Made by a program: the position numbers and the translations under genes
Notes under the pieces: model-generated
What the model saw: the letters and a program-made list of their open reading frames with translations, nothing else
What the model was told of the DNA's origin: nothing
The model's database searches: none
Source: Bradyrhizobium lablabi
GTDB lineage: Bacteria; Pseudomonadota; Alphaproteobacteria; Rhizobiales; Xanthobacteraceae
DNA length: 64,000 nucleotides
NCBI RefSeq assembly: GCF_900141755.1
Contig: NZ_LT670844.1
Span: 7,722,501-7,786,500, forward strand
Direction: 5' to 3'
Shown: positions 33,811-50,065 of the stretch, piece after piece
Numbering within the stretch: position 1 is the first letter of the stretch
Layout: every line of letters starts with the position of its first letter

Positions 33811-34581
33811 TCAGTACCTCGCCACGACCGGACCGCCGAAGCGGTAGTTCACGCGAACCGTGGCCATGTCGACATCCTGCTTGATGCTGTCGACGCGCGA
33901 GCCGACGAACACGGTGGTCGGGAAGGTGATGCTCCGGTTGCCCATGAACAGGTGATCGTATTCGACCCCGACCGACCAGTTCGGCGCAAAGCCGAATTCC
34001 ACACCGGTTCCGACCGTGCCGCCCCAGCGGGTTTCGCTGGCCTGATCGAGCACAATGCCTGCTCCGGTGAGGAAGCCGGTGTACTTGTCATGGGTGACGG
34101 CGCCGCCGCCCTTCAGATACCAGAGAACGTTGTTCCAGGCGTAGCCGACCTGGCCGGTGAAAAGGCCGATCGCGTCGATCTTGGTCTGGTTGGTCAGCAA
34201 GGGCGTCAGGGCCGCCAACGAGCTCGGATTTGACCCCTTCAGATCAGCCCAGTCGCCCTGGGCTTCGAGGCCGAACACCACGGGGCCGCTCATCCAGCGG
34301 TAGCCGATCTGACCGCCGACCAGGCCGCCGGTCGCGTTGTGACAACCCTCCGCCACGGACGGTGAAACCGGAATACCCGTGACGTTGGTGAGATCCCAGC
34401 ACTTGTGGCTCCAGCCGCCGCCGCCGTTGAGACCGATGTAGAAGCCGCTCCAGTCATAGAAGGGCGCCGTGACGATCGGAGGCGCTTTGGTGTAGGGACG
34501 GGCCGCGAGGTCCGCGGCGGACGCCGGCGCAGCCAGACCTAACGCAAGCAGTCCGACGGTGCCCAGCAAAAACTTTTTCAT
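33811..34581 (-). CDS. Omp25-like outer-membrane beta-barrel protein, 256 aa
   Basis: A signal peptide ends in PASA-ADLAARPYTKAPP, the classical start of rhizobial Omp25/RopB-type barrels. FYDWSGFYIGLNGGGGW, GGQIGYRW, WGGTVGTGVEFGFAPNWSVG and the end VRVNYRFGGPVVARY, with a terminal aromatic, fit an eight-stranded barrel of the OmpA-like fold. Two cysteines (CWDL, GCHN) are conserved in the neighbour. It is a tandem paralogue of the gene at 34800-35576, each with its own terminator. Confidence 0.9.
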   Translation of the reverse strand: MKKFLLGTVGLLALGLAAPASAADLAARPYTKAPPIVTAPFYDWSGFYIGLNGGGGWSHKCWDLTNVTGIPVSPSVAEGCHNATGGLVGGQIGYRWMSGPVVFGLEAQGDWADLKGSNPSSLAALTPLLTNQTKIDAIGLFTGQVGYAWNNVLWYLKGGGAVTHDKYTGFLTGAGIVLDQASETRWGGTVGTGVEFGFAPNWSVGVEYDHLFMGNRSITFPTTVFVGSRVDSIKQDVDMATVRVNYRFGGPVVARY

Positions 34582-34760
34582 CTCACTCTCCAGACCTTTG
34601 TCCGCTCAAAGACTTGTTCGCTTCCTTGATTCCGAAGCAATTGAAAAATCCCGCAATCGCACGCGGCATGGGGATTTATATCCGATTCAAGCGCAGAGGC
34701 TGTCCCCGAAAGGCAACACTCGCCGGCGATGATTCCGCCCGCGTTAACAGCCCGCAAGCA

Positions 34761-34787
34761 AAAAGGCCGGCGCGAAGCCGGCCTTTT
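34761..34787 (-). terminator. Terminator of outer-membrane gene 2
   Basis: AAAAGGCCGGC (34761-34771), GCGAA loop, GCCGGCCTTTT (34777-34787), with T-run on the minus strand. It isolates gene 2 from gene 1 downstream. Confidence 0.85.
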
Positions 34788-34799
34788 CTTAGATCGATA

Positions 34800-35576
34800 T
34801 CAGTACTTCGCGACCACCGGGCCACCCCAGCGGTAGTTGACGCGGACCAAGCCGATATCGACGTCCTGACGGATGCGATCCGCGCCATCGAACAAGCCGC
34901 CCGGCGTGGTGAAGTTGAAATTGCGATTACCCATGAACAGGTGATCGTATTCGATGCCGACCGACCAATTCGGCGCGAAACCGTATTCGAAGCCTGCGCC
35001 AACCGTGCCGCCCCAACGCGTTTCACGTGCGGAAGAGAAGAGCGCCCCAGTGGGAACCTCGAATATGTCGTACTTGTCGGCGGTTACGGCGCCGCCGCCC
35101 TTTACGTAAAACAGCGCATTGTTCCAGGCGTAGCCGACCTGACCAGTGAGCAACCCAAACGCATCGATGCGCGAGCGGTTGCGGTCCGTCGGAAACACCG
35201 TGCTGATATTGTCGCCTCTGAAATCAGCCCAGTTGCCCTGTCCTTCCACGCCGAACACCCAGTTCGAGGCCTGCCAGCGATAACCGATCTGACCACCGAC
35301 CGTCCCGCCGGTCGCGTCATGGCAACCTTCCGGCGTAGCAACAACCGGAACGCCTGCGGGCGTTGTTATGAGATCCCAGCACTTGCGGGAGGACCCACCG
35401 CCGCCGTTGATGCCGATGTAGAAGCCGCTCCAGTCATAGATGGCGGCGACCATCGGCGGCGGCGCTTTGGTGTAGGGACGAGCCGCGAGATCCGCGGCGG
35501 AAGCCGGCGCAGCGGTTCCCACCGCAACCGCGCCCAACGAGACCAGTCCAACAGTGCGCAGGGAAAACTTTTTCAT
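34800..35576 (-). CDS. Omp25-like outer-membrane beta-barrel protein, 258 aa
   Basis: Paralogue of 33811-34581, with the same ADLAARPYTKAPP mature start, IYDWSGFYIGINGGGG, EYGFAPNWSVGIEYDHLFMG and the C-terminal VRVNYRWGGPVVAKY. The ATG at 35576 follows GGAGAG and gives a signal peptide MKKFSLRTVGLVSLGAVAVG; the frame upstream is not coding. The two differ mostly in loops (for example TTPAGVPVVATPEGC against TNVTGIPVSPSVAEGC), as expected for surface-exposed variation after duplication. Confidence 0.9.
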   Translation of the reverse strand: MKKFSLRTVGLVSLGAVAVGTAAPASAADLAARPYTKAPPPMVAAIYDWSGFYIGINGGGGSSRKCWDLITTPAGVPVVATPEGCHDATGGTVGGQIGYRWQASNWVFGVEGQGNWADFRGDNISTVFPTDRNRSRIDAFGLLTGQVGYAWNNALFYVKGGGAVTADKYDIFEVPTGALFSSARETRWGGTVGAGFEYGFAPNWSVGIEYDHLFMGNRNFNFTTPGGLFDGADRIRQDVDIGLVRVNYRWGGPVVAKY

Positions 35577-35808
35577 GCATTTCTCTCCGGCTCTTGGTTC
35601 GCTTCGCTTGTTGTGAAGCTTTTTGAAATGAGGCTGCGACCGCCGCGGCGATCTAATTCTGGGCAAACGATAGTCCGATTCAACCCGAAATGCCGTCTCC
35701 GAAATGCAACACTCGCGAGCGAAGTGGGCGAAGGGAAAGTTACTGGATGTTAATGATTTGATAGGGTTTTCCGGGAACCCGATGGAACCCGACCCCGAGA
35801 TTCGACCC

Positions 35809-35870
35809 GCGGTCGTATCGACACACCGCCTAAGATTTAGCGGTCGTATCGACACACCGCCTAAGATTTA
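35809..35870. repeat. Perfect 31-bp tandem duplication
   Basis: The unit GCGGTCGTATCGACACACCG plus CCTAAGATTTA (31 bp) occurs twice in a row (35809-35839 and 35840-35870) without a mismatch. It is directly upstream of the ssb LexA box. Confidence 0.9.
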
Positions 35871-35887
35871 ATCGCTGCATTGCGCAG

Positions 35888-35925
35888 GAACAAAACTGGA
35901 ACAATCGCGGTGGGAATGCTATATG
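35888..35925 (+). promoter_or_regulatory. LexA box and probable promoter of ssb
   Basis: GAAC-AAAACTG-GAAC at 35888-35902 is an exact GAAC-N7-GAAC LexA operator. TGGAAC at 35898-35903 and TATATG at 35920-35925, 16 nt apart, could be the -35 and -10, which would put the operator over the -35. ssb is a known SOS gene in several alphaproteobacteria. Confidence 0.75.
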
Positions 35926-36024
35926 TGGATAACCGCTGAAACCGGCGGATCTGCAAGCTCGCGCCTCGCGGCGAGCGTATAGGGTCGGGCTTGTCCCAGT
36001 AATTTTCGAGAGTGGAGAGTGGCG

Positions 36025-36504
36025 ATGGCAGGAAGCGTCAACAAGGTGATTCTGGTCGGAAATCTCGGCAAGGATCCGGAGATCCGGCGGACCCAGGATG
36101 GCCGCCCGATTGCGAATCTGAGCGTGGCGACCTCGGAAAGCTGGCGCGACAAGGCGACCGGCGAGCGCAAGGAAAAGACCGAGTGGCACCGCGTCGTGAT
36201 TTTCAACGAGGGCCTCTGCAAGGTCGCCGAGCAATATCTGAAGAAGGGCGCCAAGGTTTACATCGAGGGCCAATTGCAGACCCGCAAATGGACCGATCAG
36301 GCAGGCGTTGAGAAATACTCCACCGAAGTCGTGCTGCAGGGGTTCAATTCGAACCTGACCATGCTCGATGGCCGCAGCAGCGGCGGCGGCAGTTTTGGGG
36401 CCGACGATGCCGGCGGCGGCGATTTCGGACCGTCCACCGCCGCGCCGCGCCGCGCCGTTGCGGCCGGAGCCCGCAGCGACATGGACGACGATATTCCGTT
36501 CTGA
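36025..36504 (+). CDS. ssb: Single-stranded DNA-binding protein, 159 aa
   Basis: SSB coats single-stranded DNA in replication and repair. The OB-fold begins [18 protein letters not shown] and continues with [20 protein letters not shown] and [17 protein letters not shown] Gly/Ala linker leads to the acidic tip MDDDIPF, which recruits partner proteins. The ATG at 36025 is preceded by GTGGAGAG; a GTG two codons earlier is possible. It is divergent from the omp/uvrA block and carries its own LexA box. Confidence 0.96.
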
Positions 36505-36602
36505 GATTTTGTTCGGAGCGCAAGGCGAGGGCGCAAGCCGCGCCACCGCCCCCCTTTTGGCGGCGTGCGTCAGCCAAGATTCGGGACCGGGGGGACAGCC
36601 TC

Positions 36603-37001
36603 ATGACCCTTGCGCCGCTGCTCGACGCAGCTCCCGCGATCCCGCTTCACGCTTTTGCCGCGATGGGCGCCTTCGTGCTCGGCGTCGTCCAGCTGGCCGC
36701 GCCCAAGGGAACCTTGCCCCATCGTGCGCTCGGCTTCATCTGGGTCGGCCTGATGGCGCTGGTGGCGATCAGTTCGTTCTGGATCCATCAGATCCGCTTG
36801 CTCGGTCCCTGGAGCCCGATCCATTTGCTGTCGATCTTCACGCTGGTCATGCTTCCGCTCGGGGTATGGATGGCGCATCGCCACCGGGTCGAGCATCACC
36901 GCCAGATCATGATCTATACGTTCTCGGGCGCGCTCGTCATCGCCGGACTGTTCACACTCGTCCCCGGGCGGATCATGCATGCCGTCGTGTTCGGGCCTTG
37001 A
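36603..37001 (+). CDS. DUF2306-like membrane protein, 132 aa
   Basis: Four membrane helices. IPLHAFAAMGAFVLGVVQLA, GTLPHRALGFIWVGLMAL and HHRQIMIYTFSGALVIAGLF contain conserved histidines (H16, H40, H98-99) that could bind heme or metal, typical of the DUF2306 family. Function unknown. It lies between ssb and gyrA; no clear ribosome-binding site except GGGGACAGCC before the ATG. Confidence 0.82.
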   Translation: MTLAPLLDAAPAIPLHAFAAMGAFVLGVVQLAAPKGTLPHRALGFIWVGLMALVAISSFWIHQIRLLGPWSPIHLLSIFTLVMLPLGVWMAHRHRVEHHRQIMIYTFSGALVIAGLFTLVPGRIMHAVVFGP

Positions 37002-37184
37002 GCCGGCCGGCCCGAGAAAGCGCATGCGGGCGATCGGATTCAGGCTCCGGCCGCAAGCCCCGCGCCCCACGTAAGTCTCTGGAAAAACGAAGGGAAAAAC
37101 CGCGCGCGCCGACCTGTTAGGGGTGGTTTTGGCGGCCCTTACGCGCTATATGATTCGACAAGAAAAACTGACCGGATTCCCCCT

Positions 37185-39917
<2,733 letters not shown>

Positions 39918-39924
39918 GGCCTTT

Positions 39925-39947
39925 CGGCTCTGATTGAAGCAGAACCG
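39925..39947 (+). terminator. Possible terminator after gyrA
   Basis: CGGCTCTG and CAGAACCG pair with one mismatch around a 7-nt loop, then T-rich sequence GGCTCTAATAGTCTTTTGTTT follows within 25 nt (in part). Weak but well placed. Confidence 0.4.
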
Positions 39948-40308
39948 GGCTCTAATAGTCTTTTGTTTCAAGGAAGCCGACTTCTGGGAAATGGGTTGGC
40001 GGGCGGATAACCTTCATGGCCCTTCGGCCGTTTAGGACAGGCCGGCCTTGCAGGCTGCGTTGCGGCCTCGCGCGCTGTTGCAAGCGCGACAACTGGGTCA
40101 GAGGCCGAATGACTGCTTTTTGCCTGCCGCCGAAGCGGTAGCCGGATCCTAATGCTTCAGCCGCTGGGTTGAACCAACAGTTAGAAACCGCTGCCGTCGC
40201 TTTTCTTGAGTGCGGTTTTCAACGCACGTTCCGATTGTGCAGCCGAGGTTTGGGTTGTACCCTTCGCGTTTCCAGAACCGTTTGCAACGAACCAGCAGGG
40301 GTAGTCCC
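39948..40308. other. Left edge of the 40-45 kb island
   Basis: About 360 nt with no supported gene, tRNA or integrase site. I saw no direct repeat matching the right edge (45404-45691). The MazG operon's promoter should be here but no convincing -35/-10 pair was found. Confidence 0.45.
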
Positions 40309-41499
40309 GTGATCAATTCGCCTGCTGGCCTGAAGCTCAGCGATTACCAAACTGAGGCGCTGAAAGCAGACAAGAGCCCAGATACTTCTTTGGCCTTTCC
40401 GTTGCTGGGGTTGTTTGGTGAGGCTGGCAGCCTGCTGAGCGTGGTGAAGAAGAAGCAGCGAGATCGGGCTGCGTATCTCGGATATGCGCCCAATGTTACC
40501 GAGGAACTTGGCGACGTTCTTTGGTATTTCGCCATCGTCGCCTCTCGCGGCGGCATCGCCCTCTCAGACATCGCCAACAACCTCAATCGGGGATTCTCCG
40601 ATTGGCAGGACGGCGGCGGTCAAGAATTACTCTTCCGAGCCCTGCAATCGTCGTCGTCGTCGTCGTCCGTCATTCGTGACCAGCCGACGCCGGAGTTTGA
40701 GAATACCCTTCTGGAACTTGCGGGCGAGATCGGTGCGATCGTGTCCGACCAGCAAACCGGCAGGCTGAACGGCAACCAGGCCGCGCTTAAGGGCAGACTG
40801 GTTGCGATCATGCGCGCCCTTGTGAAGGCCGCAGACGAAGCCGGGGTTACACTGGAAGCCGCCGCGGAAGGCAATTTGAGGAAGATATTCGACCGCTGGC
40901 CGACCAATCCCAAATACCCGGACCCTTTCGACAAAGACGCGCTCAAGAACGAGCAGCTTCCGCGTGAGTTCACGATTGATATCTTCGAGCGCGAAGTACG
41001 CGGGCAGGTATATGTCTTCCAACAATGCAACGGGATCAACATCGGCGACCGTCTGACCGACAATGCCATCGAGCCTGACGACTACCGCTTCCACGATGCA
41101 TTTCACTATGCCTATGGCGCCGTGCTAACGTGGTCGCCAGTCATGAGGGCGCTTCTCCGGCTGAAGCGGAAAAGCGATCCGTTGATAGACGAAGCCGAGG
41201 ATGGCGCCCGCGCCCTTTTGATCGAGGAAGGAATCGCGTCATGGATTTTCGGCCAGGCGAAGCGACTCGATTTTTTCGCAGGGATGAAGTCCGGCGATTT
41301 GTCATTCGATATTCTCAAAACTGTTAGGCAATTTGTCGCTGGCTATGAACCCGAGCGTTGCCCACTATGGGTCTGGGAAAAAGCGATTCTCCAAGGGTTC
41401 GATGCTTTTCGGTTCCTGAAGGAGAACCGCCGCGCCCGCCTTCGCATCGACTTGGAGCAAAGGCAACTCATCGTCGGAGAATTGCCGCATGACACCTAG
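40309..41499 (+). CDS. MazG-like nucleotide pyrophosphohydrolase with C-terminal extension, 396 aa
   Basis: The N-terminal 100 residues show the all-alpha NTP-pyrophosphohydrolase pattern. LLGLFGEAGSLLSVVKKKQRD holds the first acidic pair (E38; the usual second Glu is S41) and NVTEELGDVLWYFAIVA holds ExxD (E66, D69). A Ser7 run from a TCG repeat marks the linker. Residues about 230-380 form another domain (DYRFHDAFHYAYGAVLTWSP) seen in conflict-linked MazG proteins. GTG at 40309 with AGGGG upstream is chosen; 40210 is longer but atypical. It would hydrolyse (modified) dNTPs. Overlaps the next gene by 11 nt. Confidence 0.8.
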   Translation: MINSPAGLKLSDYQTEALKADKSPDTSLAFPLLGLFGEAGSLLSVVKKKQRDRAAYLGYAPNVTEELGDVLWYFAIVASRGGIALSDIANNLNRGFSDWQDGGGQELLFRALQSSSSSSSVIRDQPTPEFENTLLELAGEIGAIVSDQQTGRLNGNQAALKGRLVAIMRALVKAADEAGVTLEAAAEGNLRKIFDRWPTNPKYPDPFDKDALKNEQLPREFTIDIFEREVRGQVYVFQQCNGINIGDRLTDNAIEPDDYRFHDAFHYAYGAVLTWSPVMRALLRLKRKSDPLIDEAEDGARALLIEEGIASWIFGQAKRLDFFAGMKSGDLSFDILKTVRQFVAGYEPERCPLWVWEKAILQGFDAFRFLKENRRARLRIDLEQRQLIVGELPHDT

Positions 41500-42217
41500 C
41501 GCTTTTGTCACAGCACTCGCAGATGTGCGCTTGCCCTCGGTGTTTAATCCATACTCGGATTGCTGTGCCATCCATGACCGTGCTGATGCCGCCAAAACGC
41601 GCAGGAAAAATCTTGAGGTGTTCCTTCAGGGCGCCTTGAGCAGCAAGGTCGAGACAATTTGGGTCGCGCGAGACCTTGGTTATCGCGGGGGCCGCCGCAC
41701 CGGCGTCCCGCTCACGGACGAAGTTCACCTGGACGGTGTTGGGCGTCTTTTTGGAGGCATCGAGCTTAAGAGGGCGACGCGAGGGCCTGTAATGGCGGAA
41801 AGAACTGCGGCAGTTGTTTGGAGAGTGCTATCGCGCATTCACAAGCCAGTCGTGTTGTGGAATGTCTTCCCGTTCCATCCCCATGAGCCAAACGATCACC
41901 TATCAAACCGCTGCCACACCTCGGCCGAGCGCCTTATTGCGCTACCGCTATTTGAAACCTTGATTGAAATGTTTCAACCGCGGCGGCTGGTTGCGATTGG
42001 GCGAGATGCGCAACTCGCCTTGAAAGATATTAAAATCCCCGTCACCACCGTGCGGCATCCAAGCTACGGCGGACAGAATGAGTTTATCGCCGGCCTCTAC
42101 GACCTTTATGGCGTCAACGAGCAGCCGGCCCCCGAACTTGATCTCCGCGACAAGGCGAAGGTCCTGCCGCGGTCTTCGCCAACGCGGCGGGCTGAGCGCA
42201 CTGTTCCAGCAGGTTGA
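41489..42217 (+). CDS. Uracil-DNA-glycosylase-like protein, 242 aa
   Basis: The UDG fold is seen in WVARDLGYRGGRRTGVPLTDE (motif 1, the water-activating/binding loop), VVLWNVFPFHPHEP (binding-pocket Asn-containing strand) and TTVRHPSYGGQNEF (the HPS motif 3). Such enzymes excise uracil or modified bases. It starts inside the MazG-like gene, indicating a shared operon. The last 100 nt run over the 3' end of the opposite-strand thymidylate-synthase-like gene; the domain itself ends near ...LYDLYG (about 42110). Confidence 0.82.
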   Translation: MTPSAFVTALADVRLPSVFNPYSDCCAIHDRADAAKTRRKNLEVFLQGALSSKVETIWVARDLGYRGGRRTGVPLTDEVHLDGVGRLFGGIELKRATRGPVMAERTAAVVWRVLSRIHKPVVLWNVFPFHPHEPNDHLSNRCHTSAERLIALPLFETLIEMFQPRRLVAIGRDAQLALKDIKIPVTTVRHPSYGGQNEFIAGLYDLYGVNEQPAPELDLRDKAKVLPRSSPTRRAERTVPAG

Positions 42218-42935
42218 CAATCTCCTGTCGTGACGCGCTGGGTTGATCGATGGTTGCGTGCGTCGAAAGCACGGTCAGCGCCCCAACCGATGTTCCCGTT
42301 TCAGCGGCGACAAAGGCCATCAGACGGCCAAGGCCGATCAGGTTCCCGAGCAGTTTTTCAACGTAGTAGTGATTGCGATACTGCGCCGTCAGCAGAAGGG
42401 TTTTGGGCGTCCCCGGAACAAGGTGAAAGCTGAGAAAGCTCAAGCACTGGCCTCCGTACGGCGACCCGGTTACATCTCGCTCGGGATCGAACAGCGACAG
42501 CTCGTGCTTGTTGAGAGACGTGTTCGACTTGTCCTGGATGCGGCCGACCATTCGGGAAAGCTGGTCCAGCGTTCCACCGCCCACCTGCGGCATGCTGGTC
42601 ATGCGCTCGAAATAATACCCCGACCAGCGGCCATTTTTCCGGACCTTCGGAAGCACGCGCTTGTGAAAAACCTCGATGAACTTGTCCGAACCATGCCGCT
42701 GGTACAGCGCTTGCGGAAAGATGGTGTTAGCGATGCATTCCACCGATTTTTCGCGCTCTTCCAGAAAGTCGTTCACGCACGAAACGATGGGGTTAGCCAG
42801 GTTTGCGCCTGTGACGGGGTCCGCAACGTCAATCAGGACGTTATGGGCTTCATGGCCGGTTTGGCCATCGACCAGCTTGAAGGCTTCAAGCCACGCAGTG
42901 GCGCAGTCAGGCTGCGACGGAATTGCCAGGTGCAC
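42114..42935 (-). CDS. Thymidylate-synthase-like protein, 273 aa
   Basis: The C-terminal half resembles ThyA: GGQCLSFLSFHLVPG (C164 at the position of the nucleophile), LLTAQYRNHYYVEKLLGNLIG (R187, phosphate-binding region) and THATID. The N-terminal half (WLEAFKLVDGQTGHEAHNVL) is divergent, and the classic folate-contact motifs are not all visible. It could methylate or hydroxymethylate a pyrimidine nucleotide. Last gene of a five-gene minus operon; overlaps the C1 peptidase gene by 29 nt and the UDG gene tail-to-tail by 104 nt. Confidence 0.72.
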   Translation of the reverse strand: MHLAIPSQPDCATAWLEAFKLVDGQTGHEAHNVLIDVADPVTGANLANPIVSCVNDFLEEREKSVECIANTIFPQALYQRHGSDKFIEVFHKRVLPKVRKNGRWSGYYFERMTSMPQVGGGTLDQLSRMVGRIQDKSNTSLNKHELSLFDPERDVTGSPYGGQCLSFLSFHLVPGTPKTLLLTAQYRNHYYVEKLLGNLIGLGRLMAFVAAETGTSVGALTVLSTHATIDQPSASRQEIVNLLEQCAQPAALAKTAAGPSPCRGDQVRGPAAR

Positions 42936-43593
42936 TGAGATCCTCCTTCAGGATTGCCAATCTAAACACGCGCGGCTTCAAGAAATTCTCCGTCAGCCAC
43001 CCGTAGCCACCGAGCCCCCACCCATCGCCCCAGCTATTGCGGACCAACACGGCACGTTGCCCGCCAACTTCACCGTGGCCGACGGCGATCACGGCGTGCC
43101 TGCGAAGATATTCAGGCTGCTCATTCTGTCCGGGATCGACGATGCCATCGGCCTTTACCCAATCGAACGAGCGCGACAAGCGCATCAGCGCGAGAACGGG
43201 CCTGTTTTGATCAAGTTCGGCGATAATCGCATCAACCGTGTCTTTTCCGGCCTCACCGGCACGCTTGAATAGCGGCGTAACGCCGGCGGGCGGCTCCCAT
43301 TGGGTCAAATCGGCGGGAAGTTGCGCAAGGTACTCCCAACCCGTTTCGTGCGGCTGTCCGTCATCGCGCAGTGCTTCGAGCATCGACGGCAGGGTCGCTC
43401 CTTCCGTCGGCTTGCGCTTCGAGCGTTGTTGCGCACGGAAGAAAATGTACTCGCAAGACAACGGGGACCACGCCCCGCGTAGCGCCGCATGTATGTCGCT
43501 CATGGCAAACGCCAGGCACGTGGGGCGCTGTCCCTGATCTCGCACCGGGCCGAACAGCCGGCGGAGGTCTATCTTGATCGTTGTAGAGGTCAT
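42907..43593 (-). CDS. Papain-like C1 family peptidase, 228 aa
   Basis: The complete papain catalytic set is readable: Q20 and C26 in DQGQRPTCLAFA, H166 in RRHAVIAVGHGE and N186 in LVRNSWGDGWGLGGYGWL. There is no signal peptide or pro-domain, so it should be cytoplasmic, which is unusual for C1 peptidases and fits a regulatory or defence role. Its start overlaps the metallopeptidase gene stop (ATGA at 43590-43593). Confidence 0.87.
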   Translation of the reverse strand: MTSTTIKIDLRRLFGPVRDQGQRPTCLAFAMSDIHAALRGAWSPLSCEYIFFRAQQRSKRKPTEGATLPSMLEALRDDGQPHETGWEYLAQLPADLTQWEPPAGVTPLFKRAGEAGKDTVDAIIAELDQNRPVLALMRLSRSFDWVKADGIVDPGQNEQPEYLRRHAVIAVGHGEVGGQRAVLVRNSWGDGWGLGGYGWLTENFLKPRVFRLAILKEDLSAPGNSVAA

Positions 43594-44618
43594 GCTGCTT
43601 CGAGGAGTCGGCGGCGTTCAGCCCGCGAGAAGCCTTGTTCTTCAGGCCCTGTGAGGTCGTAGTTCAACGTCACTCGCGAAATGGGTGAACCTGGTTGCCA
43701 AGGGCGAGCTTCATTGAGCGACAACTGGCCACGCTGACCTTCTTCAAGTTCAAGTCCAGCGGTGACGTGGCGAACGACCGGGCCGCCAACGCCTTCATGA
43801 TCCGTCGACTCCCGATCGTCGTGAATGATCACGAAGCCGCTCTCACGTAGTTGATCCATATTCCAAAGATATCCGCCGCCGCTGTGTTCATTGAGGCGCA
43901 AGACGAAGTGGTCGTTGCGGCTGCCGTCGATGCGTGTATCGGCATCGCGTTCTGTGAGAAGCCAAACGTCCCCGCGGTAGTCGCTCGGACGGTGACCTTC
44001 GAGCAAATCGATTTTCAATTGCCGCGGCGGCGATTGGCGCAACGCACGTCCAGCTTCCCCGGCAATCAAGTTGTACCGTTGAAGCGTCCACGTCGTGGCC
44101 TCGTAGCTCGCCCCGAGGCGCAACGAAAGCTGATACACAACATGAGGCTTCCGCAGGTCCGAGGCCAGCCAGCCTTGCCGGAGGCAATGCCAACCGATAA
44201 GCCAGCGCGGCATGAGGAAGCCCACGGCAAAGGCGTCAGCCTCGACCTCCTGCATGTCGGGATCGGCCGCCGTCGGCGTGGCGGTCATGGTCATGCGACG
44301 CAGGATGTTGTTTTCATCATCCAGACTGGGACGATGCCTGAGCCGGAAATGCCCGAGTTCATGCGCGGCCGTGAAGCGCTGGATGCTGAGCGGACGTTCG
44401 GTGGTGACGAGAATGCCGGGTATCGGGTCGGGAAGGTATGCGCCAAGAAGCCCATCTAGAGGACGCAGTAGCAGGGGTAGGTGGACGCCAAGCACAGCAT
44501 CGAACACATCGATGCCGCCGCCTTGCTGCTGCATCTTGGCCTGGGTACCGAACTCGACGTGCAGTCTGGCCGCCGCCATCGCCCCGTTTCGCACTGCCCC
44601 TGCGTAGTCGGTAGCCAT
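43590..44618 (-). CDS. ImmA/IrrE-family metallopeptidase, 342 aa
   Basis: The zinc motif HELGH (86-90) in RFTAAHELGHFRLRHRPS, with a downstream Glu in EVEADAFAVGFLMP (E126), is the ImmA/IrrE hallmark. ImmA-type peptidases cleave or modulate XRE repressors, and the gene directly upstream encodes such a repressor. The C-terminal 150 residues have a separate beta-rich domain (HFVLRLNEHSGGGYLWNM) of unknown role, possibly a sensor. Two nt separate it from the XRE gene. Confidence 0.88.
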   Translation of the reverse strand: MATDYAGAVRNGAMAAARLHVEFGTQAKMQQQGGGIDVFDAVLGVHLPLLLRPLDGLLGAYLPDPIPGILVTTERPLSIQRFTAAHELGHFRLRHRPSLDDENNILRRMTMTATPTAADPDMQEVEADAFAVGFLMPRWLIGWHCLRQGWLASDLRKPHVVYQLSLRLGASYEATTWTLQRYNLIAGEAGRALRQSPPRQLKIDLLEGHRPSDYRGDVWLLTERDADTRIDGSRNDHFVLRLNEHSGGGYLWNMDQLRESGFVIIHDDRESTDHEGVGGPVVRHVTAGLELEEGQRGQLSLNEARPWQPGSPISRVTLNYDLTGPEEQGFSRAERRRLLEAA

Positions 44619-44620
44619 GA

Positions 44621-44995
44621 CTACTCCTGGCCGGCCTGTGAGCGGGCGCGGAGATATTCAACGAACCGCCCGAGCTCTGCCTGGTCTTGATCGGACAATG
44701 CGGCTGCCTGCCGTGCGAGGTGCGCGACGCTGGGGGGAAGGGCGGCTGCCGCGGCATCTTCTCCCGTGAAATAGCTCACCGGCTGCTTGTATAGCTTTGC
44801 GAGGCGCGTCAGTTCCATCGCTTCGACACGGCGCTGACCGCTTTCGATATCGACCAGCGCCGTACGCGGGATCTTCAGGTAGGTAGCCACGTCCTCTTGC
44901 TTGAGGCCCAGATACTTGCGAGCCTCCCGAAGCCTTTCGCCAAGTCGCTGACGTTCGCCTTCTTCGTTGAAGGTTGAGGCGGATTGATCGGTCAT
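44621..44995 (-). CDS. XRE-family transcriptional regulator, 124 aa
   Basis: The helix-turn-helix covers residues about 15-72 (LGERLREARKYLGLKQEDVA, TYLKIPRTALVDIESGQRRV, ELTRLAKLYKQPVSYF). A C-terminal helix rich in Ala/Asp/Gln follows (HLARQAAALSDQDQAELGRF). It probably binds the palindrome in the promoter at 45375-45403 and is controlled by the ImmA peptidase encoded next to it. Its start overlaps the preceding gene's stop (ATGA). Confidence 0.9.
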   Translation of the reverse strand: MTDQSASTFNEEGERQRLGERLREARKYLGLKQEDVATYLKIPRTALVDIESGQRRVEAMELTRLAKLYKQPVSYFTGEDAAAAALPPSVAHLARQAAALSDQDQAELGRFVEYLRARSQAGQE

Positions 44996-45339
44996 TTTTT
45001 GCCTCCTTTACTTCCGTTCTTTTCCCACGCCTTCTCGATGCGAGGCATGAGGTGGTCCATCGCTTGATTCACGGAGTTGTAACCGCCGGCTCGAACGAGG
45101 TGGTCCTTCAACTCAAAACCGACGATTGGCTCGATGTCGCACAACAGGGAGACGACATCGAGCGAGTCGAGGCGGACCGATGCGGCAGCCTGGCCCGCGA
45201 CATCGGCCGGCAGATTGATGCCCTTCATCATTGCGTCGGAATTCGCCGATGCCAGCAGGGCGTCGCGCAGCTTTGCTTCGACCGCTGCTTTCGGAAACGC
45301 GGTGGTAGTTCCGGGTTTTGTAATCGTATCGACCGGCAT
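44992..45339 (-). CDS. Acyl-carrier-protein-like protein, 115 aa
   Basis: The core VRLDSLDVVSLLCDIEPIVG matches the carrier-protein motif around the phosphopantetheine serine (DSL), with a helix-2 LLCDIEPIVGFEL and a final helix NSVNQAMDHLMPRIEKAW like helix 4. N-terminal residues (AVEAKLRDALLASANSD) would be helix 1. It is first in the operon, preceded by GAGAGGG; GTG at 45342 is an alternative start. A carrier protein without any acyltransferase nearby is unusual; it may act as a regulatory subunit. The assignment is by eye. Confidence 0.65.
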   Translation of the reverse strand: MPVDTITKPGTTTAFPKAAVEAKLRDALLASANSDAMMKGINLPADVAGQAAASVRLDSLDVVSLLCDIEPIVGFELKDHLVRAGGYNSVNQAMDHLMPRIEKAWEKNGSKGGKK

Positions 45340-45374
45340 CACGCCCTCTCTGTGTTAATCAGCGACGTGAAAAG

Positions 45375-45403
45375 AGTATAATGTGTCTTTTTCAGACATT
45401 CAA
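45375..45403 (-). promoter_or_regulatory. Promoter and operator of the five-gene operon
   Basis: On the minus strand, -35 TTGAAT (45403-45398) and -10 TATACT (45380-45375) are spaced by 17 nt. The spacer and part of the -35 form a palindrome TGTCT-N5-AGACA (45384-45398). Its place suits a repressor operator, presumably for the XRE protein of the operon. The start site would be near 45368, about 29 nt before the first ATG. Confidence 0.75.
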
Positions 45404-45691
45404 CAGTTAAGATTCTCGTATTTCGCGGTTTAATGTGTTGCTACCCGCCCTGATAGTGACCTGCGGCCAGAGAAGGGACCCCTAACGATGCGATTCAAAC
45501 TGGCCACCGATACGGCAGCCCTCGCGGCATACCTGCCCATTCATGATCTTCATCGAAACCGGATTGTCGTTGCCGTCCGCTCCCACGGTTCGCCGCCGCC
45601 GGAATCGATGAGGTCCCCGGGGGGCATCCCGGGGACCTCTAACCAGAGCAATCTGGAAGCAATTGAAGGTTAAATCGGTAGGATCGGCGCT
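45404..45691. other. Right edge of the island
   Basis: No gene supported. An ORF-like stretch at 45488-45673 runs through the hairpin at 45610-45639 and has no good start signal. No direct repeat to the left edge was noticed. Confidence 0.45.
45610..45639 (-). terminator. Hairpin downstream of the 87-aa secreted protein gene
   Basis: GAGGTCCCCGGG (45610-45621) and CCCGGGGACCTC (45628-45639) form a strong 12-bp stem with a 6-nt loop. No T-run; terminator-like or a repeat half. Confidence 0.55.
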
Positions 45692-45955
45692 CTACGGCGT
45701 GCGGTCGGCGGTAACCAGCCGGGCTTCCCGGATCATGGTCTTGGTCTTGGAGCCGGCGACGCGCAGGCAGGAAGCCTCGAAGTTCGGCCAGGCCTTCTGC
45801 GAGCAGTTCGGGCCCATGGTGTTGATGTCGAGCCGGTCGGCCTTGGCGAGGGCCTGCGGCGTGGAGGCTTCGACCTGGGGGGCAAAGCCGGGAAGAACGG
45901 TCAACGCGGCAGCGACAAGCGCAGCAATAGCGATAGCTGAAAAAGCCTTGATCAT
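45692..45955 (-). CDS. Small secreted protein, 87 aa
   Basis: A signal peptide (MIKAFSAIAIAALVAAALTV, then PGFAPQVEA) precedes a short mature domain, DINTMGPNCSQKAWPNFEAS, CLRV, and a basic tail. The pattern CSQxAWPxFExxCL is one I associate with many small rhizobial periplasmic proteins, with a likely disulfide between the two cysteines. AGGGGA lies upstream of the ATG at 45955. Function unknown. In relatives such a gene often lies between gyrA and coaD; I infer this from memory. Confidence 0.75.
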   Translation of the reverse strand: MIKAFSAIAIAALVAAALTVLPGFAPQVEASTPQALAKADRLDINTMGPNCSQKAWPNFEASCLRVAGSKTKTMIREARLVTADRTP

Positions 45956-46239
45956 GGCGGTCCCCTGTCTTTGGGCCTTGGCGGCCCCGTCGTTTCGTTG
46001 GTTAACTGATACAAAGCGACCGTTTCCGGATGTCTTCGCGGGGTCAGAAAACGGTTTCATGCCCCTGGAGTTTTGTTTCGTCGCTGCGGTGGGACGAAAC
46101 ATGGCCCGGTTGCCAAGAAGACGCTGGGAACCGCGAACGGGTTCGGAGGCTTGCGAAATAATAAAAATCGAGCTTTCGCGGGCCCCACCGGGAACCGGCC
46201 CGGCTTGCCCGGCCGCCCGGGGCGGGGTAGACGGGGCTT

Positions 46240-46737
46240 ATGCCCCGTATCGCGCTTTATCCCGGCTCCTTCGACCCCGTCACCAATGGCCATTTGGACG
46301 TGGTCCGGCACGCCGTCGTGCTGTGTGACCGGCTGATTGTCGCCGTCGGCCTGAACTCGACCAAGCAGCCGCTGTTTTCGACCGACGAGCGCCTGGACAT
46401 GGTCAAGGCCGTGTTTGCGCCGGTCGCCGCCAAAGCCGGCTGCGCCTTCGATTGCACGACCTATGACAATCTCACCGTTGCTGCGGCGCAAAAACACGGC
46501 GCGACCATCATGATCCGCGGTTTGCGCGACGGCACCGACCTTGATTTCGAAATGCAGATCGCCGGCATGAACGAGACCATGGCGCCTGACGTGCATACGG
46601 TGTTCGTTCCGGCATCGCCCGCCGTCCGCCCGATCACCGCCACACTGGTGCGCCAAATCGCCGGCATGGGTGGCGACGTATCGCCGTTCGTGCCGCCTTT
46701 GGTCGCGGCCGGCCTTAAGACCAAATTCGGCGGCTAA
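46240..46737 (+). CDS. coaD: Phosphopantetheine adenylyltransferase, 165 aa
   Basis: CoaD makes dephospho-CoA from phosphopantetheine and ATP. The nucleotidyltransferase motif [19 protein letters not shown] and the substrate-binding strand [17 protein letters not shown] are intact; the C-terminal [19 protein letters not shown] matches the alphaproteobacterial form. Length is normal. It begins the coaD-ppi-ppi-queA group. Confidence 0.95.
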
Positions 46738-46841
46738 CTAAAGACTTCAGCGCGTCTTCCGCGAAAGCTAGAACCCGTCTTGCGACAGGACTACGCGCCG
46801 ACCCAAAGACCCTCATCTTTCTCACCTGATCCGGAGTTTTC

Positions 46842-47405
46842 ATGATCCGAGCTCTCGCCTTTATCGTCGCGCTGATTTGCGCGGCCCCCGCGCTTGCGCA
46901 GCCGCTGCCCGCAGGTCTCGACAAGCAGAACGCGATCGTCATCGATACGACCAAGGGGCGGATCGTCATCAAGCTGCGGACCGACATCGCGCCCCAGCAT
47001 GCCGAGCGCATCAAGCAACTGGCGCGCGAGGGCTTTTACAACAACGTGCCGTTCCACCGCGTCATGGACGGCTTCATGGCGCAGACCGGCGACGGCAAGA
47101 ATTTCGACGGAACGGGCGGATCGAAATACCCGAACCTGAAGCAGGAATTCTCCAATGTTCATTTCAAGCGCGGCATTGTCGGCATGGCGCGGCGCGGCGA
47201 CAGCGTCGATTCCGCCAATTCGCAGTTCTTCATCATGTTCGCCGATGGCGCGAGCCTCGATGGCCAATACACCGTGATCGGCGAAGTGGTGTCGGGAATG
47301 GACGTGGTCGACAAATTGAAGAAGGCGCCTCCGGGCTCTGCCGGCGGCGCCGTGACCGATCCGGACAAGATGGTGAAGGTACAAGTCGCCTCCGACATCA
47401 AGTGA
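46842..47405 (+). CDS. Periplasmic cyclophilin-type peptidyl-prolyl isomerase, 187 aa
   Basis: A signal peptide (MIRALAFIVALICAAPALA) is followed by the cyclophilin domain: NNVPFHRVMDGFMAQTGDG (substrate-site Arg and Gln), RGIVGMARRGDSVDSANSQFFIMF and YTVIGEVVSGMDVVD. It catalyses proline isomerisation of exported proteins. GGAG precedes the ATG. A cytoplasmic paralogue without a signal peptide is two genes downstream. Confidence 0.92.
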   Translation: MIRALAFIVALICAAPALAQPLPAGLDKQNAIVIDTTKGRIVIKLRTDIAPQHAERIKQLAREGFYNNVPFHRVMDGFMAQTGDGKNFDGTGGSKYPNLKQEFSNVHFKRGIVGMARRGDSVDSANSQFFIMFADGASLDGQYTVIGEVVSGMDVVDKLKKAPPGSAGGAVTDPDKMVKVQVASDIK

Positions 47406-47414
47406 GGGGCTGTG

Positions 47415-47843
47415 ATGCGGCGGCGCAATCAATTGCTCTGGATGGCCTCGGCGCTGCTGCTGCCGGCCTCCGCCTGCGCGCAGGGGGCGCCGGCGCAGGT
47501 CAATACCATCCAGGATGTGTTCACCAAACTGGGGACCTGCTGGAAACCGCCGCCGCCGTCCCGCGCCAACCCCGATATCGACATCACGGTGATCGTCAGT
47601 TTCAAGCGCAGCGGAGAGATTCTCGGCCATCCGAAGATCACCTATGAATCGGAAAAGGCGACCGATAACGACCGGGTAGAATACCGGATCGCCGTGATGG
47701 AGGCGTTGCAACGCTGCACGCCGATGCCATTTACCGAGAGTATGGCCGGCGCGGTTGCCGGCCGGCCATTCGCGGTGCGATTTTACAATCACAAACCCCA
47801 ACCCGCGGAGAAGAAAGCATGGCTGACACCGAAAATACTTTGA
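47415..47843 (+). CDS. Secreted TonB-C-like hypothetical protein, 142 aa
   Basis: A signal peptide (MRRRNQLLWMASALLLPASA) leads to a small domain: IQDVFTKLGTCWKPPPPSR, DIDITVIVSFKRSGEILGHP and VMEALQRCTPMPF. The conserved CWKPP and RC..MPF elements and the GxIxGxP strand resemble TonB C-terminal-like domains of periplasmic proteins. It overlaps the next cyclophilin gene by 25 nt. GTG at 47412 or ATG at 47415 may start it. Confidence 0.8.
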   Translation: MRRRNQLLWMASALLLPASACAQGAPAQVNTIQDVFTKLGTCWKPPPPSRANPDIDITVIVSFKRSGEILGHPKITYESEKATDNDRVEYRIAVMEALQRCTPMPFTESMAGAVAGRPFAVRFYNHKPQPAEKKAWLTPKIL

Positions 47844-48286
47844 TCCTCGAAACCACGCAGGGTCCGGTCACGATCGAGATGCGGCCCGATCTTGCCCCCG
47901 GTCACGTCGCGCGGATCAAGGAACTGGTGCGCGAAGGATTTTACGACGGCATCGTGTTCCACCGCGTGATCGACGGCTTCATGGCGCAGACCGGCTGCCC
48001 GCAGGGCACCGGAACCGGCGGCTCCGGAAAAAAACTCAAGGCCGAATTCAACAACGAACCGCATGTGCGCGGCACCACCTCGATGGCGCGCGCGGCCAGC
48101 CCGGATTCCGGCGACAGCCAGTTCTTCATCTGCTTCGACGACGCCTCCTTCCTCAACAAGCAGTACACGGTCTGGGGCAAGGTGGTTTCGGGCATGGAGA
48201 ACGTCGACAAGATCAAGCGCGGCGAGCCGGTGAAAGACCCGGACAAGATCGTCAAGGCGCGGATGGCGCTGGACGACGCGGCGTGA
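47819..48286 (+). CDS. Cytoplasmic cyclophilin-type peptidyl-prolyl isomerase, 155 aa
   Basis: Cyclophilin domain without signal peptide: DGIVFHRVIDGFMAQTGCPQ, RGTTSMARAASPDSGDSQFF, and YTVWGKVVSGMENVDKI. It resembles PpiB-type enzymes. The start lies within the previous gene, showing translational coupling. Together with 46842-47405 it forms a secreted/cytoplasmic isomerase pair, a conserved arrangement before queA. Confidence 0.93.
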   Translation: MADTENTLILETTQGPVTIEMRPDLAPGHVARIKELVREGFYDGIVFHRVIDGFMAQTGCPQGTGTGGSGKKLKAEFNNEPHVRGTTSMARAASPDSGDSQFFICFDDASFLNKQYTVWGKVVSGMENVDKIKRGEPVKDPDKIVKARMALDDAA

Positions 48287-48340
48287 ATGGTCATGCCCGG
48301 CAATCACGGGCCGAGACGCACTGCGCACCTTACACACAAC

Positions 48341-48478
48341 CGTCATCGCCCGGCATAGCCGTCCGAAGGACGGCGTCGCTTCCGCTCGCCTATGACCGGG
48401 CGATCCAGTATTCCAGAGCAATTGCGATAGAGCCGTGAAGCCGCGGCGTACTGGATCCCCGCTTTCGCGGGGATGACG
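48341..48478. repeat. CGTCAT-family palindromic repeat, copy 4 (long form)
   Basis: Same structure as 6018-6154: CGTCATCGCCCGGCATAGCC, inner GTCCGAAGGAC stem, GATCCAGTATTCCAGAG, GTACTGGATCCCCGCTTTCG, and GATGACG. It occupies most of the gap between the second cyclophilin gene and queA. Confidence 0.78.
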
Positions 48479-48523
48479 AGTATTGATGCGGAGCCGGTCA
48501 AGCCCGGCAATGACAGTGTTATC

Positions 48524-49627
48524 ATGCGCACCGACCTCTTCGACTTCGAGCTTCCTGCCTCAAGCATCGCGCTGCGCCCGGCGAGCCCGCGCGATTCCGC
48601 GCAGATGCTGACCGTGCAGCCGGACGGCGCCTTGGCCGACCGCGTCGTCGCCGATCTGCCGCTGATGCTTCGGCCCGGGGACCAGCTCGTCGTCAACGAC
48701 ACCAAGGTGATCGCGGCCCAGCTCAAAGGCCGCCGTATTGGGCGTGAAACCGAGCCGAAGATCGACGCAACATTGATAAAACGCCTCGACGGCTCCCGCT
48801 GGCAAGCACTGGCAAAACCGGCGAAAAAACTGTCGCCAGGCGATGTGATCCGCTTCGGCAATGAGGGCAAGGTGTGCCTGCTCGGCCATCTCGATGCGCA
48901 AGTCGAGCACAAGGGTGACGACGGCGAAGTCACGCTGTCGTTTTCATTTCACGGGCCGACGCTCGATTCTGCCATTGCCGATCTCGGCAGCCCGCCGCTG
49001 CCGCCTTACATCGCCTCCAAGCGTGCGCCCGATGAGCGCGATGAAGCGGACTACCAGACTATGTTCGCGGCCAATGAGGGCGCGGTCGCAGCACCTACCG
49101 CCGGATTGCATTTTACGGAGGCGCTGGAGGCGGCGTTGCGCGCGCGCGGGATCGGCATTCACCGGATCACGCTGCATGTCGGCGCAGGGACCTTCCTGCC
49201 GGTCAAGGCGGAGGATACGGCCGGGCACAAGATGCATTCCGAATGGGGCACGATCTCCCGCGAGACGGCCGATGCGCTGAATGCGGCCCGCGCCGCCGGC
49301 GGCCGCATCGTCGCCGTCGGCACCACCTCGCTGCGGCTGTTGGAGAGCGCCGCCGCCGAGGACGGCACCATCGGACCGTTTGCGGATGAAACCGCGATCT
49401 TCATCACGCCGGGCTACCGCTTTCGCGCGGTCGATATTTTGATGACCAATTTTCACCTGCCGCGTTCGACGCTGTTCATGCTGGTGTCGGCGTTTTCGGG
49501 GCTCGACACCATGAAACGCGCGTACGCCCACGCGATCGCTGGTGGATACCGGTTCTATTCCTATGGCGACGCCTGCCTGCTGTTTCGTGCACCTGACAAG
49601 CTAGGGCGCGAACTCATTCCAGCGTAG
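48524..49627 (+). CDS. queA: S-adenosylmethionine:tRNA ribosyltransferase-isomerase, 367 aa
   Basis: QueA adds the epoxycyclopentanediol part during queuosine synthesis on tRNA, after Tgt. The N-terminal [37 protein letters not shown] and [20 protein letters not shown] are typical, as is [17 protein letters not shown] near the end. The ATG at 48524 is preferred over the longer frame from 48473, which begins in repeat sequence. Its usual neighbour tgt is 4.5 kb downstream here because of an inserted block. Confidence 0.95.
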
Positions 49628-49909
49628 CCAAATTCGGATTGACATGCGGACGGACATTGAAGAGGTCAGCTTATCGGGCAAGACCGGAAGTGACCGGCGC
49701 GCTGTCAAAGCGACGCGATTGACCCGCAACGGACAGGTTGGGGATGGGCAGAGCACCGCTGCTCTGTCCACCTACTTCAGACATTAACTTGTTCCGCAAT
49801 TTGGTCTGCCGCACCAAAGTCCGCTTCGTGCCCATAAGCGGCCGTTTCGGCGATATCGCCAGTCCCGCAAATACGAAGAGTCCAAGCTGTGAGGCGTAAA
49901 CTGCTAAAA
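49628..49909. other. Degenerate region after queA
   Basis: No gene supported. Short minus-strand frames give peptides resembling decayed dispersed repeats known to me from Bradyrhizobium intergenic DNA (fragments with GTKRT-like and AGQSRRFDSAPV). Low confidence; a repeat search would settle it. Confidence 0.3.
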
Positions 49910-50065
49910 TCAATCGCGTTCGAAGATCTTGGCGCCAGGGTAGACGCGCCGGGCGTACGCCACGACCAACTCCCGGTCCTGAGTCTCCAGGAACGGAGTT
50001 CGGATCTGACACGACCCGACGATGAGGTGCCACAGGCCATTAAGCCTCTGAATGATGATGTTCAT
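49910..50065 (-). CDS. Small conserved-looking protein, 51 aa
   Basis: Hand-trimmed from a longer frame: MNIIIQRLNGLWHLIVGS then QIRTPFLETQDRELVVAYA and RRVYPGAKIFERD. GAGGA lies 8 nt before the ATG at 50065. The pattern (QRLNGLWHLxVG, then Y/R-rich helix) looks like a small single-domain protein. I have a vague memory of similar proteins in rhizobia but no name. Confidence 0.55.
   Translation of the reverse strand: MNIIIQRLNGLWHLIVGSCQIRTPFLETQDRELVVAYARRVYPGAKIFERD

Follow-up and report, generated by a model that had tools for sequence, protein, structure and literature searches.

Why does the chromosome of Bradyrhizobium lablabi carry, between gyrA and coaD, a compact set of seven genes in which two nucleotide enzymes face an operon that encodes a protease and its putative control proteins? 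We analysed this locus in a stretch of 64,000 nucleotides of contig NZ_LT670844.1 (positions 7,722,501 to 7,786,500), here called the window. A sequence-only reading of the same DNA had proposed the seven-gene island and named its genes; our analysis confirmed the island as it had been observed, the gene identities hold, and all seven genes are intact in the window. Our answer, which we hold at about even confidence, is a mobile and inducible system for nucleotide modification that has a protease arm and most likely acts in defence against invaders. Beyond what had been described before, we found a chagasin domain, an operator, variants of the island carrying the HMUDK_hel domain, and the boundaries of an insertion. 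In window coordinates, the locus is composed as follows.

39920 to 45590, no strand: inserted segment with approximate ends, between gyrA and a small open reading frame (ORF) upstream of coaD
40309 to 41499, plus strand: MazG-type nucleoside triphosphate pyrophosphohydrolase with a MazG_C domain (PF18722 4e-78, PF03819 2e-6); the start is the GTG at 40309, with an alternative in-frame GTG at 40210
41489 to 42217, plus strand: uracil-DNA glycosylase (UDG)-superfamily protein with an HPS motif, H190-P191-S192 (PF03167 1e-4, below cut-off)
42114 to 42935, minus strand: thymidylate synthase (TS)-superfamily nucleotide enzyme (TS-like), nucleophile Cys164, not an ordinary ThyA (fold, alignment, hhalign)
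42907 to 43593, minus strand: papain-like C1 protease without prodomain, triad C26/H166/N186 (PF00112 4e-11)
43590 to 44618, minus strand: ImmA/IrrE metallopeptidase with a fused chagasin (I42) domain, a papain inhibitor, at its C-terminus
43650 to 43979, minus strand: the chagasin domain, residues 214-323 of the ImmA protein (PF09394 7e-6, PDB profile, fold, loops)
44621 to 44995, minus strand: predicted XRE-family repressor (HTH_31 2e-10; RmrA 4e-13 and CapH 2e-11 models)
44992 to 45342, minus strand: acyl-carrier-like protein, phosphopantetheine Ser60 in a DSL motif (PDB acyl carrier protein profile 1.7e-6)
45380 to 45400, no strand: palindromic operator AATGTGTCTTTTTCAGACATT, 13/16 consensus positions, adjoining a -10-like TATACT

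Whether these genes belong together was addressed by a genome scan with the TS-like protein, in which 121 loci were found and the best 80 by TS similarity were kept, so that UDG- and C1-containing types are over-represented among the 80 (numbers preceded by L denote our loci). The complete seven-gene set is present in 78 of these 80 loci, which rules out scattered housekeeping genes, and the core order is kept in 77 of them (71 exactly, 6 with an additional XRE match nearby). The deviating loci are L045, where the UDG and MazG matches stand in reversed order, L054, which ends at a contig end, and L111, which is without UDG; L078 seems split into pieces. Plasmids of alpha- and betaproteobacteria (Sphingobium, Sinorhizobium, Bradyrhizobium, Acuticoccus and Burkholderia) carry copies in identical gene order, and a Haloarcula plasmid carries a five-gene form in which UDG and MazG are missing and HMUDK_hel lies nearby. 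With the window and the plasmid loci counted in, 87 complete loci fell into 36 groups of TS-like proteins at 80% identity and 44 at 90%. Across the 44 representatives, pairwise gene distances correlate (r 0.94 for ImmA and TS, 0.90 for TS and MazG, 0.90 for ImmA and MazG). Given this co-occurrence and the plasmid copies in the same order, the earlier claim that the genes form one set held up: the seven genes are a conserved unit.

The unit is inserted at a variable site. Next to gyrA, the alignment of the window to relatives stops at about 39,920 and resumes at about 45,590, which corresponds to an insert of about 5.7 kb. In relative L124, window positions 39910 and 45592 correspond to 755 and 860, two points 105 bp apart; in L119, 39910 and 45603 correspond to 864 and 907, and in L132, 39920 and 45687 correspond to 2581 and 2525. 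We measured the gyrA-coaD gap in 20 relatives, drawn from 59 genomes with a coaD match: four have a gap of 604-742 bp, and in the other sixteen it spans 2.6-9.7 kb. A profile search of these 20 stretches found no island gene. Across the genus the gyrA-coaD interval (39918-46239 in the window; L148-L167) is a variable hotspot, holding other cargo in relatives, from 0.6 to 9.7 kb. Around the insert no long flanking repeat was found, no integrase was recognised by eye among the ORFs (a model search was not made), and a tRNA search at the island gave nothing useful. The TS-like gene is patchily distributed: 14 of 197 relatives and, across the class, 9 of 385 genomes have a match, and both figures include its own genome and some weak or partial matches.

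What chemistry would such a unit perform? The TS-like protein has a TS-superfamily fold, its C164 is invariant in 17/17 sequences, and hhalign against two ThyA-type sequences placed Cys164, Arg187 and Asn198 on ThyA C146, R166 and N177. The classical ThyA residues D169, H207 and Y209, which have known roles, are replaced by Y190, T228 and D230. The ThyA model PF00303 has no match in the protein, and TIGR03283 reaches 31.5 bits with a cut-off of 174.55. Replacement of the cell's thymidylate synthase was ruled out, since the genome has an ordinary thyA. The carrier S60 is invariant in 15/15 sequences, within a DSx motif in 13 and NSK in 2. Among the loci scanned, a dCTP deaminase lies near the island in 6, and a holo-acyl carrier protein synthase or phosphopantetheinyl transferase in 10. 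We propose that the TS-like enzyme would alter the C5 of a pyrimidine mononucleotide, that MazG would remove competing nucleoside triphosphates and that the phosphopantetheine carrier would deliver an acyl or aminoacyl group; the UDG-like protein, or the HMUDK_hel protein in variants, would act on the resulting base in DNA. The sequence-only reading had suspected the sensing or removal of modified pyrimidines, which stays one option among several, as making a modified pyrimidine fits equally well. The same enzymes could also belong to a metabolic or secondary-metabolite cluster, in which a nucleoside-derived compound would be made with the carrier protein and no conflict role would be involved; MilA in mildiomycin synthesis offers a parallel. 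Among the recurring neighbours (part of the clusters being annotated) we recognised no gene for a transporter, an adenylation enzyme or a ligase, and XRE/ImmA control together with a protease and its inhibitor would be unusual for a cluster of this kind, which we regard as quite improbable.

The enzyme that would act on the base is exchangeable. Against the Pfam UDG model PF03167 the UDG-like protein scores 22.8 bits (cut-off 24.3), and against the PDB profile of TM0511 it gives 0.005 over part of the protein only; in an alignment of 12 sequences, H190, P191, G194 and G195 are invariant and S192 is found in at least 90%. We tabulated 109 loci, leaving out the window, its own copy L008 and L001, and with several of the 109 being short stretches: UDG is present in 91, HMUDK_hel (PF18723, the "5-hmdU DNA kinase" domain, 5-hmdU standing for 5-hydroxymethyldeoxyuridine) in 15, neither in 3 and both in 0. 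This exchange needs at least 2 changes on the TS tree. PF18723 is confined to the variants, as HMUDK was not found by profile in window 34001-50000, and the HMUDK_hel profile gave chance matches only against solved structures.

This exchange bears on a second explanation, restriction by base excision, in which the UDG-like protein would itself be the effector that removes modified or uracil-like bases from phage DNA, while the other genes would make, spare or regulate a self mark. The model for it is Brig1, a UDG-superfamily glycosylase that, according to PMC11078745, protects alone against T4. Both proteins stand in a defence-like context, and UDG-like genes matched 45 plasmid records against 24 for TS, therefore UDG-like genes also occur without the TS operon. 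However, where Brig1 acts alone, the island UDG is one of seven genes and replaceable: because HMUDK_hel takes its place in 15 of the 109 loci, the system can do without the UDG protein, and base-excision restriction seems to us improbable.

MazG_C was found in 14 places, of which 11 were pulled, and UDG or HMUDK_hel stands beside it in all 11; it is absent from 14 control genomes. We therefore read the pairing of MazG_C with a base enzyme as a probable portable module that serves in several conflict-like settings. Besides the island, a second and Thoeris-like setting of the UDG-MazG_C pair is seen in L202, with Nmad2 and a ThsB-type TIR gene, in L203, with Nmad2, TIR and SLOG genes, and in L027 and L028, beside TIR genes and, in L028, also SIR2; no TS operon was found in these four loci. 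The island, which is without TIR or SLOG, differs from them in effector and regulator.

How would the system be kept silent and then released? Upstream of the carrier gene, 44/44 representatives have a site that agrees with the consensus palindrome AATGTCNGANNNTCNGACATT at no fewer than 12 of its 16 positions, and elsewhere the consensus has 14 matches in 671 kb, none of them upstream of MazG; because the consensus was derived from the loci on which it was then counted, the contrast with the remaining DNA is the evidence for the operator. In the ImmA protein the HExxH zinc site (H86, E87, H90) is invariant in 11/11 sequences, and the metallopeptidase half is closest to CapP and PprI. XRE would repress the carrier-XRE-ImmA-C1-TS operon through this palindrome, and ImmA, by analogy with CapP and PprI, would be activated by a damage or infection signal and cleave XRE.

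The same ImmA protein probably controls the protease. The C1 triad (C26, H166, N186) is invariant in 11/11 aligned proteins, and the alignment of the protein to mature cathepsin K begins near residue 11, the gene encoding the mature domain only. The chagasin domain shows the Ig-like chagasin fold, with a PDB profile match of 1e-10 to amoebiasin-2, and PF09394 is present in 106 of 120 relatives among the matches listed. Chagasin-family inhibitors of cysteine proteases (ICP) carry the loop motifs NPTTG, GXGG and RPW/F, as described in PMC2607524; two of the three are kept in the window domain, as GVGG and RPW. Unlike these inhibitors, the island domain forms one protein with a metallopeptidase, and the gene next to it encodes its likely target. 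Chagasin and C1 are both present in 97 of the 109 loci and both missing in 12, with no locus having one alone, which speaks for a link between the two. Chagasin on ImmA may keep the prodomain-less papain protease inactive and, being fused to ImmA, one protein would switch the operon and lock its protease. In an infection, the freed protease, or the excision of bases from foreign DNA, might then stop the invader or the cell, the step of which we are least sure. In its complete form, offered tentatively, our proposal is that the island may be a new mobile immune system, in which a pyrimidine-modification pathway with its own acyl carrier is coupled to a cytoplasmic papain protease shut by chagasin on ImmA and freed by an infection or DNA-damage signal.

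Phages and plasmids were searched for the same genes. None of 50,697 phage records matches the window TS or UDG protein, by which a phage gene set was ruled out as the origin, and scanning with the UDG/C1-type alignment turned up no viral contig. The MazG query matched 16 phage records; the 12 among the matches listed cover its N-terminal fifth only. Two viral contigs do carry C1-less sets: that of L035 includes HMUDK, and that of L036 has neither of the base enzymes; the latter (L036:6570-9514) is a prophage XRE-ImmA-TS-MazG set between terminase and portal, in which no C1, chagasin, UDG or HMUDK was found. These searches bear on the explanation that a mobile element uses the island for anti-restriction or self-marking, placing an unusual pyrimidine in its own DNA against host nucleases, with the UDG correcting wrong bases and the protease removing a host factor. 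The likeness to parts of phage thymidine hypermodification (the TS-like enzyme and the HMUDK_hel and Nmad2 relatives), the plasmid location, the ArdC anti-restriction genes in the flanks (3/132 ORFs) and the prophage copy L036 argue for it. DNA-modification shields are most used in phages, however, where the window TS and UDG proteins were not found; the window copy is a chromosomal insert with no transfer genes recognised by eye, and UDG-MazG_C elsewhere accompanies TIR, Thoeris and SLOG genes. We consider anti-restriction unlikely.

Returning to inducible defence, the context supports the conflict role that had been suggested from the sequence, namely the patchy distribution, the plasmids, the variable chromosomal site and the flanks, and the role itself stays a proposal. 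Conjugation and partition genes lie among the flanking ORFs, as do ArdC, Fic, AbiJ, Mrr, GajA-, AbiLi- and caspase-like genes and ordinary enzymes. The number of PADLOC families matched was 63 in 132 flanking ORFs from 35 loci and 13 in an equal-sized control of 132 ORFs from 20 chromosomal stretches in eight genomes of the window's genus, an enrichment that is suggestive only, because families with overlapping models were counted and the control was chromosomal and from one genus. Several observations weigh against our reading. The UDG distances correlate least with those of the other genes (r 0.46-0.64, 44 representatives); L036 and L111 have MazG_C with neither UDG nor HMUDK found, and L033 has UDG with MazG_C missing. 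Arg187 is kept in UDG-type but not in all HMUDK-type TS-like proteins, and there is no adenylation or acyl-loading enzyme in the island. The window chagasin domain reaches 26.7 bits against PF09394, just under the cut-off of 27.2, and its NPTTG loop is replaced by HSGGG, with the surrounding G-Y-x-W kept. The linkage of chagasin with C1 is weaker than the counts of 97 and 12 suggest, because it is a single event on the TS tree. The prophage set of L036 also fits a DNA-protection role.

Some neighbours recur beside the island. Caspase-family genes lie upstream of it on two Rhizobiaceae plasmids (L003:2317-4239 and L031:444-1637). The widest shared flanking family, part of the clusters being annotated, is a gene of 74 amino acids that adjoins MazG in 14/54 loci (L109:10635-10856 and 13 others); it looks ribbon-helix-helix-like by eye and has no Pfam match, and a search of window 39001-46500 did not find it. 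In 7/54 loci (L003, L032, L042, L044, L068, L107 and L115) the island has beside it a large gene, of about 776 amino acids in L044, which is annotated as a metallophosphoesterase in L003 and L032.

Is the set already known under another name? The sequence-only reading knew of no such system. PADLOC-DB 2023 gave generic matches only (capP, capH, RmrA, control proteins, HTH_VI, PDC-M69B), to ImmA and XRE, no match for the other five proteins and no system-specific model for the seven. Literature searches on the seven-gene set or its parts found no description among limited listings. Iyer et al. 2013 reportedly surveys base-modification gene neighbourhoods and may already note HMUDK-type neighbours, and priority for the HMUDK-type variant is therefore not claimed. 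CapH/CapP of CBASS (cyclic oligonucleotide-based antiphage signalling system) and PprI/DdrO are known kin of the XRE/ImmA pair, to which the island ImmA adds chagasin and the island operon a TS-like enzyme, a carrier protein and a papain protease; unlike in CBASS, no CD-NTase cyclase model is among the PADLOC matches of the seven proteins. Phage thymidine hypermodification through 5-hmdU has a TS-superfamily enzyme in common with the island, whose variants also carry HMUDK_hel, whereas the window has UDG in that place, adds the carrier, XRE/ImmA and the protease, and its TS and UDG are those without a match in phage records.

Our reading is directly testable, given that the cassette appears self-contained and measures only about 5 kb. 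If it is true, bacteria and plasmids would have an inducible defence that runs a nucleotide chemistry of its own, uses a carrier protein for a task other than lipid or peptide synthesis, and keeps a papain protease under a chagasin fused to a damage-sensing metallopeptidase. It would also give MazG_C, HMUDK_hel and Nmad2 proteins a function outside phages, and may point to a new DNA base.

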